Source: Agrococcus terreus
GTDB lineage: Bacteria > Actinomycetota > Actinomycetes > Actinomycetales > Microbacteriaceae
DNA: 64,000 bases
NCBI RefSeq assembly: GCF_014645235.1
Contig: NZ_BMLM01000002.1
Location: 356,696 to 420,695, forward strand
Reading direction: 5' to 3'
Position numbers and translations under genes: made by a program. Every line of letters starts with the position of its first letter. Positions within the stretch are counted from its first letter, which is position 1. Shown one piece after another: positions 17,815-58,961 of the stretch. A model generated the notes under the pieces. That model saw only the letters and a program-made list of their open reading frames with translations, searched no databases and was not told the DNA's origin.

Positions 17815-18037
17815 TCGCTGGTCGAGGAGCGCGCGGCGCAGCCGCACGCGCCTCGAGACCACCCCGCTTCGCTGGTCGAGGAGCGCGCGGCGCAGCCGCA
17901 CGCGTCTCGAGACCACCCCGCTTCGCTGGTCGAGGAGCGCGCGGCGCAGCCGCTCGCGCCTCGAGACCACCGCCGCGACTCGCTGGGTGGTCTCGAGACG
18001 GCGGCGCCCTGCGGGCGCGGCCTCCTCGACCAGCGAG
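17815..18037. repeat. 54-bp tandem repeat array ending in an inverted copy
   Basis: The 340 bp between araB and the LacI gene (17702-18041) hold the araB promoter plus this array. Three units begin TCGCTGGTCGAGGAGC at 17815, 17869 and 17923, an exact 54-bp period, each ending in CTCGAGACCAC. An inverted unit follows (about 17983-18037): GGTCTCGAGACG ... CTCCTCGACCAGCGA. Unit interiors differ by single bases. The same termini recur at 21048-21386. It may act as the LacI-gene terminator and as a repeated extragenic palindrome. Confidence 0.9.
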
Positions 18038-21047: not shown

Positions 21048-21386
21048 TGTGGTCTCGAGACGCGGCCGGCTCCGCCGGCAGCTCCTCGACCAGCTGAGGG
21101 AGCACCCGCCGGTCGAGCCGCTCCGCCGCCGCACCTCCGCTGGTCGAGCCGCTCCGCCGCTGCAGGCGGCTGAGCGAGTCGAGACCACAGCATGGCGAGC
21201 TGCTCGCCGCGCTGTGGTCTCGAGACGCCGCCGGCTCCGCCGGCAGCTCCTCGACCAGCGGAGGGGGCGCCACCTCGCTGGTCGAGGAGCGCGCGGCGCA
21301 GCCGCACGCGTCACGAGACCCGCCCCGCCGACCGGTCTCGTGACGGCAGCGCCCTTCGGGCGCGGGCTCCTCGACCAGCGGAGGGA
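21048..21386. repeat. Cluster of alternating-orientation palindromic elements
   Basis: The 381-bp gap between the convergent porter and galK genes (21031-21411) is almost filled by five units related to those at 17815. Forward units start GGTCTCGAGAC(G) or GGTCTCGTGACG and end CTCCTCGACCAGC (21051-21094, 21216-21259, 21334-21380). Reverse units start with GGTCGAG and end in CGAGACC (about 21111-21187 and 21279-21320). Interiors carry GCCGGCTCCGCCGGC or GCGCCCTTCGGGCGC stem-loops. The orientation of successive units alternates. Confidence 0.88.
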
Positions 21387-23732: not shown

Positions 23733-23764
23733 CATGCGCGAATCTGTGCGAAGGTGTGCGCATG
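23733..23764. promoter_or_regulatory. Helically phased repeats in the galT/DeoR divergent promoter
   Basis: Three consecutive 10-bp repeats occur: TGCGCGAATC (23735), TGTGCGAAGG (23745) and TGTGCGCATG (23755). The outer ends CATGCGC (23733-23739) and GCGCATG (23758-23764) are inverted. A 10-bp period puts all copies on one DNA face, as expected for an oligomeric DeoR-type repressor. The last copy covers the DeoR start codon, so autoregulation is likely (inference). Confidence 0.65.
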
Positions 23765-24610
23765 GATCCGCAGCGCACAGCGTCGCCGAGCACTGGCGAC
23801 GCCCGCGCTGCTGGCGGCCCCCGAGCATCCGGCGCGCCGGCGCTCGAGGCGGGCCTGCACGACGTCGAGCGCCGCGAGCGGATCGTCGCCGCGCTGCGCG
23901 ACGGCGGCGTCGCCCGCGTGGCCGACCTCGCCGCGGCGCTCGGCGTCTCGGCCATGACCGTGCGCCGCGACGCCGACCGGCTCGAGGCCGAGGGCGTGCT
24001 CGAGCGCGTGCGCGGCGGCGTGCGCCGGGTGCGGCCGCCGCTCACCGAGGAGCCCGCCCCGCTCGCGAAGGCCGCGCTGCACCGCGACGAGAAGGCCCGG
24101 ATCGCCGCGGCGGCCGCCCCGCTCGTGCGGCCGGGCACCGCGATCGGCATCGGCGCGGGCTCGACGGCGCTCGCGCTCGCGCGCCTCGTCGCGGACGCGC
24201 CGGGCGTCACGATCGTGACGAACTCGCTGCAGGTCGCGCTCGCGCTCGAAGGCCGCGACGGCGTCGTGCTGACGGGCGGCGAGCGCACGCGGTCCGATGC
24301 GCTCGTCGGCCCGGTCGCCAACCGCGCCGCCGCCTCCATCGGCCTCGACGTGCTCTTCCTCGGCGCGCACGGCATCGACGCGGCACGCGGCTGCACGGCG
24401 CCGAACCTCGCGGAGGCCGAGACGAACCGGGCGCTCATGGCCTCGGCGCGCCAGGTGGTGGCGCTCGTCGACGCGTCGAAGTGGGGCGAGCAGGCGCTCG
24501 CGACGTTCGCGGCGCTCGACGAGCTCGACGTGCTCGTCACCGACGCGTCGCTGCCCGCCGCGGCGCGCCGGGCGGCGCGCGCCGGCGTCGGCCGCCTCCT
24601 CCTCGCCTGA
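23762..24610 (+). CDS. DeoR/GlpR-family regulator of galTK
   Basis: A 282-residue DeoR-family repressor. After a Ser/Ala/Gly-rich 30-residue leader comes the winged helix: ERRERIVAALRDGGVARVADLAAALGVSAMTVRRDADRL (split here as ERIVAALRDGG, VADLAAALGVS, AMTVRRDADRL). The sugar-phosphate-binding domain has GTAIGIGAGSTALALARLV, TIVTNSLQVAL, FLGAHGIDAARGCTAPN and LVDASKWGEQAL. These are the normal DeoRC landmarks. The start at 23762 has GAAGG 8 nt upstream; an in-frame ATG at 23715 lacks a better site. It is divergent from galT, and galactose 1-phosphate or a related sugar phosphate is the probable effector (inferred). Confidence 0.92.
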   Translation: MDPQRTASPSTGDARAAGGPRASGAPALEAGLHDVERRERIVAALRDGGVARVADLAAALGVSAMTVRRDADRLEAEGVLERVRGGVRRVRPPLTEEPAPLAKAALHRDEKARIAAAAAPLVRPGTAIGIGAGSTALALARLVADAPGVTIVTNSLQVALALEGRDGVVLTGGERTRSDALVGPVANRAAASIGLDVLFLGAHGIDAARGCTAPNLAEAETNRALMASARQVVALVDASKWGEQALATFAALDELDVLVTDASLPAAARRAARAGVGRLLLA

Positions 24611-24644
24611 CCCGCTCCGCTTGTCCGACACGCTCCCCACGTCG

Positions 24645-24845
24645 TGTGGTCAGAGATGGCCCTCCGCTGGCTCGCGCGAGGGCCATCTGTGACCACAGCC
24701 TGAGCCGCGATCGCTCGGTGTGGTCACGAACGGCCCCTCTCGCGTGCCCGAAGGGGCCATCTGTGACCACAGCCGGCGCTGCCGCAGCGGGATGTGGTCA
24801 CGAACGGCCCCTCGCGGGCGCGCTGGAGGGCCGTTCGTGACCACA
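24645..24845. repeat. Three 53-nt hairpins at an exact 74-bp period
   Basis: The 317-bp gap 24611-24927 is filled by this array and the element at 24871. Each unit runs from TGTGGTCA to TGACCACA: 24645-24697, 24719-24771 and 24793-24845. Arms carry GATGGCCCTC/GAGGGCCATC or CGAACGGCCC(T)/GGGGCCAT-type complementary segments. The two spacers are both exactly 21 nt and unlike each other. No cas genes are present, and two spacers with self-complementary repeats are not a CRISPR array. Confidence 0.9.
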
Positions 24846-24870
24846 GCGGATGCGGCGGCACGGATGCCTG

Positions 24871-24909
24871 CCAGGTCCGGCCAGGTCCGGCCAGGTCCGG
24901 CCTGGCCGG
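24871..24909. repeat. Triple 10-bp direct repeat with hairpin
   Basis: CCAGGTCCGG is repeated exactly three times (24871-24900). The last copy forms a stem, CCGGCCAGG (24887-24895) with CCTGGCCGG (24901-24909) around loop TCCGG. It sits 18 bp past the metB stop and probably ends that transcript; the DeoR gene converges from the other side. Confidence 0.7.
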
Positions 24910-24927
24910 GGCCGGAGCGGCGCGGCG

Positions 24928-26078
<1,151 letters not shown>

Positions 26079-26079
<1 letters not shown>

Positions 26080-27449
26080 CATGCCTCCTTCGCGAGGAAC
26101 GTCAGCAGATCGGTGCGGGTGACGACGCCGATGGGCTTCGCCTCGTCGAGCACGAGCAGGGCGTCGGCGTCGCGGAGCGCTGCCTGCAGCGCCTCCGACC
26201 CCTCGCCCGCGCCGATGCGCGGCAGCTGGGCGCCGAGGTGCTCGGCCACCGGGTCGGCGAGCCGCGCGCGGCCCGCGAAGACGGCGTCGAGCAGGTGCCG
26301 CTCGTCGATCGAGCCGGCGACCTCGCCGAGCACGACGGGCGGCTCGGCGCGCAGCACGGGCAGCTGGCTCACGCCGTACTCGCGCATGATCTCGATCGCG
26401 TCGTGCACGGTGTCGGTCGGATGCGCGTGCACGAGGGCGGGCGCGCTCGCGCCCTTCGCGGCGAGCACGTCGCGCACGGTCGTGCCCTCGGCCGCGTCGG
26501 CGAAGCCGTGGGCGCGCATCCACGGGTCGGAGTAGACCTTCTGCAGGTAGCCGCGGCCGGAGTCGGGCAGCACGACGACGACGACCGCGTCGGCCGGGAG
26601 CTCGCGCGCGACGCGCAGCGCGACGACGACGGCCATGCCGCTCGAGCCGCCCACGAGCAGCCCTTCTTCGCGAGCGAGGCGGCGGGTCATCGCGAACGAC
26701 TCGGCGTCGTCGACCGCGAGCACCTCGTCGATGACGGACGGGTCGTAGTTGCCGGGCCACATGTCCTCGCCGACGCCCTCGACGAGGTACGGCCGGCCGG
26801 TGCCGCCCGAGTAGATCGAGCCCTCGGGGTCGGCCCCGACGACGCGCACGGCGCCCTCGGACGCGCGCTTCAGGAACCGCGCGGTGCCGGTGATCGTGCC
26901 GCCCGTGCCGACGCCGGCGACGAAGTGCGTGATGCGGCCGTCGGTGTCGCGCCAGATCTCCGGACCGGTCGTCGCCTCGTGCGCGGCGGGCGCGGCGGGG
27001 TTGAAGAACTGGTTCGGCTGGAACGCGCCCTCGATCTCGTCGGTGAGGCGGTTGGCGACGCCGTAGTACGACTCGGGGCTGTCGGGCGCGACGGCGGTGG
27101 GCGTCACGACGACCTCGGCGCCGTAGGCGCGCAGGGTCGCCCGCTTGTCCTCGGCGACCTTGTCGGGGCAGACGAAGACGCAGCGGTAGCCGCGCTGCTG
27201 CGCGACGAGCGCGAGGCCGACGCCCGTGTTGCCGCTCGTCGGCTCGACGATCGTGCCGCCGGGCCGCAGCAGCCCGCGCTCCTCGGCGTCGTCGATCATC
27301 GACTGCGCGATGCGGTCCTTGACGGAGCCGCCGGGGTTGAAGAACTCGACCTTCGCGAGCACGGTCGCGGCGATCCCCTCGGTGACCTTCGACAGCCGCA
27401 CGAGCGGGGTGTCGCCGATGGTCTCGAGGATCGACTCCGCGTAGCGCAT
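26079..27449 (-). CDS. cbs: Cystathionine beta-synthase
   Basis: A 456-residue fold-type II PLP enzyme with a C-terminal CBS-domain pair. The PLP lysine is in FFNPGGSVKDRIA, the substrate loop is PTSGNTGVGLAL and the phosphate loop is GVGTGGTITG; GGSSGMAVVVALR follows. Two CBS repeats cover about residues 325-455 (DTVHDAIEIMREYGVSQLPV and GVVTRTDLLTFL). The CBS pair distinguishes it from plain cysteine synthase and may bind adenosyl ligands. It condenses serine and homocysteine to cystathionine. metB follows at once. The homocysteine could come from the S-adenosylhomocysteine hydrolase-like enzyme at 60094. The start is 31 bp from the divergent alkyltransferase-like gene. Confidence 0.95.
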
Positions 27450-40835: not shown

Positions 40836-40877
40836 ACGACGAGGGCCCCGGATCCGCGGATCCGGGGCCCTCGTCGT
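40836..40877. terminator. Bidirectional terminator, 42-bp perfect palindrome
   Basis: The segment 40836-40877 is a perfect palindrome with no unpaired centre: left arm ACGACGAGGGCCCCGGATCC plus G, right arm its reverse complement. It lies 10 bp after the ATPase stop and 3 bp before the oppC-like stop, so it serves both convergent transcripts. Confidence 0.9.
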
Positions 40878-46924: not shown

Positions 46925-46943
46925 CCCGCGGCGCGCGATCGCG

Positions 46944-47077
46944 GACCCCGTCGCGCATCCGGGACCCGCACGACGGGGTCGCGGATGCGCGGAGGGGTCC
47001 CGGATCCGTGCGCAAGGCGGACCCGATCGCACGGACCGGACCCCGCACGCGGGGTCCGGTCCGTGGCATCGGGTCCG
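46944..47077. terminator. Nested palindromes between convergent genes
   Basis: The 160-bp gap holds two hairpins. First, GACCCCGTCG (46944-46953) with CGACGGGGTC (46971-46980). Second, an outer stem CGGACCCGAT (47018-47027) / ATCGGGTCCG (47068-47077) with an inner 16-bp stem ACGGACCGGACCCCGC (47031-47046) / GCGGGGTCCGGTCCGT (47049-47064) and a 2-nt loop. It serves the kinase-regulator and nucleotidase transcripts and is larger than a terminator needs to be. Confidence 0.85.
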
Positions 47078-58900: not shown

Positions 58901-58961
58901 GCACATGTGCAGGAAGTGGCCGTTCTGGCGCGCGCGGAGCAACCACTTCCTGCACATGTGC
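58901..58961. repeat. 19-bp perfect inverted repeat with 23-nt loop
   Basis: GCACATGTGCAGGAAGTGG (58901-58919) and CCACTTCCTGCACATGTGC (58943-58961). The end of each arm contains a second palindrome, GCACATGTGC. It lies upstream of the sigma operon and downstream of an SRPBCC gene. The rest of the 191-bp gap shows no coding signal. Confidence 0.88.

Follow-up and report, generated by a model that had tools for sequence, protein, structure and literature searches.

The three-unit array and its dispersed copies

In the window, by which we mean the whole 64-kb stretch of DNA that was analysed, three palindromic units of 53 nt, delimited from sequence and fold (24645..24697, 24719..24771 and 24793..24845), alternate with two 21-nt spacers read from the sequence (24698..24718 and 24772..24792). 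They lie between two convergent genes, on the left that of a DeoR-type regulator (23756..24610, plus strand), which is not thought to be part of the system, and on the right a MetB-like gene for a PLP enzyme of Cys/Met metabolism (24928..26082, minus strand), which marks a place common to the congener G019. The description given in the earlier note, three 53-nt inverted repeats with start-to-start distances of 74 and 74 nt and spacers of 21 and 21 nt between convergent genes, was confirmed from the sequence. The units end in TGTGGTC/GACCACA, and their centres and spacers are unrelated to each other. The half-site TGTGGTCANNNANGGCCC has six exact matches in the window, all inside the array, and seven when up to two mismatches are allowed (shuffle mean 0.24, largest 2, in 100 shuffles). 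Folded as single-stranded DNA, units 1, 2 and 3 reach -25, -19.4 and -26.9 kcal/mol (z -7.6, -5.3 and -7.5). A short tandem repeat of CCAGGTCCGG adjoins the array at 24867-24906.

The differences between the interiors of the units had been taken for compensated changes. Among the 27 distinct 53-nt units of the window's genome (G000) and G019, this holds for the ends and an inner patch, as arm positions 1-7 (TGTGGTC) and 15-18 (GCCC) pair in 25-27 of them, but not for the middle, where positions 8-14 pair in only 15-20 of the 27, since the middles of the two arms of a unit may differ, e.g. ACGAACG and ACAGATG in unit 2 of the window. Strict hairpin covariation was rejected on this count. Since the patches pair and the middles vary, the conserved object is an arm of 18 bp that contains two fixed patches and occurs in inverted pairs, more like a dimer half-site than a stem constrained purely by pairing. 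The suggestion of a structured RNA found no support: stem mismatches near the nuclease genes described below (G-T 51 and A-C 39 on the gene-sense strand) have no clear strand bias and so do not speak for constraint at the RNA level, and the six Rfam matches up to E 1 in the region 24001-25500 were all to miRNA families, far below the gathering scores. CRISPR-like, attC-type, iteron and structured-RNA readings, considered from the anatomy, were dropped once the association with a gene emerged; in place of the near-identical direct repeats and unique spacers of CRISPR, the units are inverted arm pairs with variable centres and spacers. Same-orientation arm spacings, which were entered by hand, give no more than a hint of helical phasing (R 0.66; 5 of 10000 random sets, and 326 of 10000 after near-equal spacings were merged). 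An extra copy of the outer 6-mer was found inside the centre of 18 of 145 palindromes (5.7 expected).

A strict motif search of 24 genomes of the genus gave matches in G000 and G019 only. G000 (2.83 Mb, eight contigs) holds 14 units at eight places, twelve of 53 nt and two of 54 nt, neighbouring units being separated by 20, 21, 22 or 42 nt; according to our gene calls, three of the eight places are convergent, four lie between tandem genes and one is undecided. G019 holds 17 units, 16 of them 53 nt long, including a run of five spaced at exactly 74 bp and a run of three spaced at 73 bp, and its triple adjoins the 3' side of metB like the array in the window. With a loose motif, matches were obtained in 11 of 398 genomes of the family, and complementarity of the inner part was seen by eye in three of the 11, namely G000 and two genomes of the genus g51, G142 (15 matches) and G073 (one match), whose units of 52-53 nt have the same ends and a different inside. 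A third arm lies about 22 nt beyond the palindrome in 10 of 11 elements read in G142. Elements of G142 and G019 (L055, L057, L060-L068) have, next to the basic inverted pair, a third and a fourth arm at constant distances of about 22 or 32 bp, and similar extra arms were observed at the GTGGTCACGACRCGCCG sites of G004, G009, G020 and G002. A three-arm pattern was also found in two stretches across genome contigs (Neolewinella and a MAG), in a scan that may skip records near the window's genome, and these were taken as chance; likewise, a loose motif scan of viral contigs gave at least 120 loci, and in the 120 checked for arm complementarity the best value was 15/19, which looks like chance.

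According to the earlier note, the array would be a chance duplication if the unit had no second copy; copies are present in its own genome, in the congener and in another genus. Tandem duplication does occur, since units 2-5 of the five-copy array of G019 are alike over most of their sequence. In the window, however, the unrelated centres and spacers and the recurrence of the unit at seven further places of the genome speak against it, and as the full explanation of the array chance local duplication is refuted by the copies elsewhere in G000 and in G019, which leaves it practically no credibility.

A nuclease-like gene between palindromes

At a second place common to G000 and G019 (L019, L058), units stand on both sides of a gene encoding a protein of about 315 aa, and the gene that follows begins, by eye, like purE. 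In G000 (C1:832489-833436) there are two units on each side, which together make up four of the 14 units of the genome. At the shared places, arm middles differ between the species and are alike within each genome, a concerted change. Furthermore, at the metB junction of the congeners G007, G008 and G014 we found a different palindrome of 52-54 nt, then a gene for a protein of about 320 aa and then a second copy of the palindrome. Of 20 metB loci read, ten have a convergent MFS gene that faces metB across a gap of about 20 to 280 bp, three (G007, G008 and G014) have the cassette between metB and an MFS gene about 1.2 kb away, and the remaining seven gave no MFS match; occupied and empty sites are too diverged for an exact boundary. 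Further inverted repeats (GCACAACGCAAGCCCG; GAGATGTGCACG) were observed behind metB in other congeners, at L197 (G018), L206 (G017) and L205 (G015), so that palindromes seem to prefer this junction. Other palindromes, with CTGGTCGAGGAGC / GGTCTCGAGAC ends, lie in the window at 21174-21320 and 17841-17891, and a similar GTAGGTCGAGGAG...GTCACGAGACC stretch was seen behind metB in G002 and, as GCAGGTCGAGGAG, behind metB in G004.

The 315-aa gene is homologous to genes of proteins with a Vsr/DUF559-type nuclease end; DUF559 is by its name a family of unknown function. In a profile search of four proteins, P0002 (72% identity to P0001) gave no match to a nuclease family, P0001 matched MTES_1575 with E 0.084, far below the cut-off, the L211 protein (34% identity) matched it at 2.5e-6 and the L210 protein (37% identity) at 5.5e-8, the last being the sole one above the DUF559 cut-off (22.1 vs 20.6). 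Among 25 aligned members, 21 match PF18741 (MTES_1575) and 15 match PF04480 (DUF559) at E up to 0.1. A profile search of PDB gave an endonuclease-like protein (3hrl, 4.4e-5), PvuRts1I (0.036) and a mobile-intron protein (3r3p, 1.2), so that what the profiles suggest is a remote relationship to nucleases. The residues E189, D222, H239 and D249 are invariant in the alignment and fit the name EDxHD; together with the weak match to 3r3p, which we take to be the structure of I-Bth0305I, they suggest that the partner proteins may be of the EDxHD kind. The N-terminal part resembles AbiEi in PADLOC models (8.2e-5 for P0001 and 8.6e-13 for the best member), with matches that are weak and confined to a minority of the members, at most five of 25 for any one PADLOC model; Pfam AbiEi_4 was matched by one of 25, and P0002 gave no AbiEi match. 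Of 148 genomes taken from across the class, 123 contain homologs, often more than one each, and all 24 genomes of the genus have between two and seven homolog matches.

Palindromes at homolog loci and their divergence with the protein

To score the flanks of homologs in the genus, a palindrome was defined as 40-60 nt long with at least 14 of 16 outer pairs and lying within 320 bp of the match; short match fragments were merged with neighbours or dropped, as was L310, the same gene as L244. Of the resulting 88 loci, 30 had palindromes on two sides, 28 on one side and 30 on none (33, 25 and 30 with lengths up to 62). Twenty rounds of dinucleotide shuffling gave no two-sided locus and a mean of 2.8 one-sided loci (largest 8), a background that is understated, because the real 64-kb window holds 20 palindromes of this rule, about 0.2 per tested flank pair. 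Among 27 control loci of the metB family none was two-sided and 11 were one-sided, some of them with dispersed copies of these same palindrome families, so one-sided cases alone are weak. The best control is the internal one, in which windows of equal size 1.0-1.36 kb away from the same loci were scored; one of 30 genus and two of 25 class loci were left out of it for short flanks or length. Palindromes were found there in 4/29 genus, 0/30 family and 1/23 class loci, against 16/29, 22/30 and 22/23 beside the gene (pooled, 5/82 vs 60/82), and two-sided cases numbered 0, 0 and 0 far from the gene vs 10, 15 and 10 beside it.

Over 138 homolog loci, 58 were two-sided, 36 one-sided and 44 without palindromes at the threshold of the scan, which misses weaker ones (L242, scored as none, has six nearby at a looser rule). 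In 52 of the 58 two-sided loci the upstream and downstream arms agree in at least 14 of 20 positions, and the mean agreement of 16.5/20, compared with 8.7 between loci, was reached in 0 of 2000 permutations. Of the other six, L225, L290, L336 and L351 were read as having arms of one type that are shifted in register (in this comparison the scan had mis-set the palindrome upstream of L225), and in L342 and L356 the arms were read as truly different. L362 and L296 are one gene. In 12 other families of the class, at least one palindrome was found at 24 of 25 loci (the exception being L367), a sample made up of the top-scoring places and not of a random draw. The median palindrome length is 56, bounded by the searched range of 40-62. 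GATCAT or ATGATC was seen near the outer palindrome ends at L364, L366, L368-L370, L373 and L375-L377 in the other families of the class, unlike the outer ends in the genus of the window, which are varied. We regard a partnership between gene and palindrome as very nearly certain.

By comparison of sequences, each gene lineage was shown to have its own palindrome, which diverges with the protein. Among 91 proteins, arms agree in at least 14 of 20 positions in 1-2% of the pairs below 40% protein identity and in all nine pairs above 80%. Protein and arm identity are correlated with a rho of 0.156, which is small because most protein pairs are distant and which 0 of 999 Mantel permutations reached; the correlation is higher for the N-terminal third (0.183) than for the C-terminal part (0.083). 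When 87 homologs of the genus were placed in a tree, a single split with a local support of 0.98 united 16 of the 30 palindrome-free loci (L232-L240, L249, L251, L255-L257, L261 and L309), one per genome in 16 genomes. This orthologous branch is a candidate for a settled host gene, perhaps, and, as the same kind of gene in the same genomes without palindromes, it serves as an internal control. Strong hairpins between convergent genes also bring to mind simple bidirectional transcription terminators or boundary hairpins that have no particular partner. Such generic elements would not have the same private sequence on both flanks within one gene family and differ from gene to gene; moreover, no T run follows the units as read from the sequence, and we hold this explanation to be very improbable.

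Where searches were made, genomes with the gene were shown to contain dispersed copies of its palindrome. GAGGTTTTCGGCCC was found in exactly three of the 24 genus genomes (13 sites in G007, six in G008 and 11 in G014), the three whose gene it flanks. With at most one mismatch, GTGGTCACGACRCGCCG was found 55 times in G004, 45 in G020, 28 in G009 and 16 in G002, and 0-1 times in the other 20. In G004 and G020 a gene adjoins the GTGGTCACGACRCGCCG palindrome, the gene of G004 being in two pieces; none of the four homologs of G009 and the five of G002 stands beside the dispersed repeat, which can thus be present without adjoining gene. In the genus g51, the homolog L345 of G073 has a one-sided palindrome with the GGTCAAAAAGTGTCGA arm of the G142 and G073 units, three of the six homologs of G142 were read, none with the unit type of that genome, and two units of G142 that are 1 kb apart have, by eye, no such gene between them. 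The window's own genome has a second gene of the kind outside the window (G000:C2:746535-747455), flanked by CACATGTGCA-type palindromes, of which full copies lie at C1:434471, at C1:992538 and in the window as a 61-nt palindrome with GCACATGTGCAGGAAGTGG arms (58901..58961). The window also contains a perfect 42-bp palindrome at 40836-40877 and two long inverted repeats at 46937-47006 and 47018-47077.

The association might instead reflect operator sites, with the AbiEi-like N-terminus as an autorepressor acting on palindromes around its own gene, the dispersed copies as regulon or decoys, and the nuclease part serving another purpose, e.g. defence. The AbiEi-model matches of the N-terminal part and the 69 loci with a palindrome 5' of the gene are in line with this, as is the binding of AbiEi and Rv2827c to inverted repeats in promoters (PMC7319586). 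However, more loci (83) have a 3' palindrome, where an operator is not expected, the dispersed units in G000 often lie behind genes, and arrays of up to five units behind genes are unlike operators. We consider the operator reading unlikely.

Relation to known systems and a proposed mechanism

Of the explanations offered in the earlier note, the target of a REP-type transposase came nearest, in that dispersed, lineage-specific palindromes flank a gene; its enzyme does not fit, as the partner is nuclease-like and a search for the Y1 transposase (PF01797) was negative in the window's genome (0/1) and positive in 5 of 14 control genomes. In a REPtron, as described in PMC8266576 and PMC3733652, a RAYT gene is flanked by its own palindromes, which have dispersed copies and co-evolve with the enzyme, and REP sequences measure 20-40 bp with a GTAG or CGTC tag at one end (PMC3733652). 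The likeness is one of architecture only, an enzyme gene flanked by palindromes that are also dispersed in the genome, whereas here the partner is of the Vsr/DUF559 type in place of a Y1 (TnpA-REP, HUH) enzyme, and the units have 53 nt and no GTAG or CGTC tag. Insertion sequences and MITEs similarly have a gene between repeated ends and copies without the gene, but each end here is a whole palindrome and the enzyme is different; no target-site duplication was obvious by eye in the unit flanks, and occupied and empty pairs are too diverged to align.

The families PF18741 (MTES_1575) and PF04480 (DUF559) are matched by the C-terminal part of many of the partner proteins; MTES_1575 is named a novel Vsr REase in PMC3710099, and no repeat partner for either was found in the parts of open-licence PMC texts covered by our literature search. 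In some members the N-terminal part is similar to AbiEi, the antitoxin of the type IV toxin-antitoxin system AbiE, with the difference that it is here fused to a nuclease-like part. The EDxHD homing endonuclease I-Bth0305I dimerises on a target of nearly 60 bp according to PMC3943268, a size close to that of the palindromes here; unlike in that case, the gene lies between two whole sites, does not split one, and has no intron.

We favour, as a rather likely reading, that the array in the window consists of clustered, non-autonomous copies of a palindrome belonging to a chromosomal nuclease-like gene, as REP belongs to RAYT, with an unrelated enzyme. The AbiEi-like N-terminal part of each monomer would bind one arm of about 18 bp, so that a dimer would cover the whole unit, and the Vsr/EDxHD-type domain would nick or cut close to the variable centre. 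When such breaks are repaired or replicated, arms and units might be copied to new intergenic places and kept alike within the genome. It is probable that the protein recognises its own palindrome. That nuclease activity drives the spread and the likeness of the palindromes has, in our judgement, an even chance of being right. The broader proposal is equally balanced, namely that there are class-wide, REP-independent nuclease-palindrome pairs, in which a protein with an AbiEi-like part and an EDxHD/Vsr nuclease recognises, cuts and propagates its own palindrome of about 50-60 bp as a dimer, with a co-evolution so fast that the palindrome of each lineage is private and alike within the genome.

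The open-licence PMC texts searched gave no description of palindromes associated with DUF559/MTES_1575 genes, and the gene-and-palindrome pairs look like a system not described before. We place it with the repeat-plus-enzyme kind, with a fair chance that it deserves a class of its own. If true, the way of life of the REPtron would have been invented a second time and independently, and a set of intergenic palindromes outside the RAYT world would gain an enzyme partner; in a 2013 survey (PMC3733652) it was left as an open question whether some palindromic repeats are mobilised by other transposases. Moreover, each protein has a candidate substrate in its flanking palindromes, so that binding and cutting can be tested at once, and protein and site, which diverge rapidly and together, supply many natural pairs for reading a new DNA-recognition code.

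Such rapid divergence of a protein together with its site is common in conflict systems and could point to defence, in which the nuclease would attack foreign DNA and the palindromes would mark, hold or restrain it on the chromosome, and restriction-type PADLOC models are indeed matched by some members (mREase_II 6/25, ZorE 3/25). We regard such self-marking or decoy sites as improbable, since the copies are few and clustered and the viral contigs gave no close relatives: two protein scans were without any relative, and a third gave a single locus that shares the Vsr-like segment only. The protein at this locus on a viral contig (L361, 397 aa) differs in its N-terminus, and its Vsr-like segment is 49% identical to a short part of P0001. 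Among plasmids, relatives were found in two Arthrobacter records, with 31 and 36% identity.
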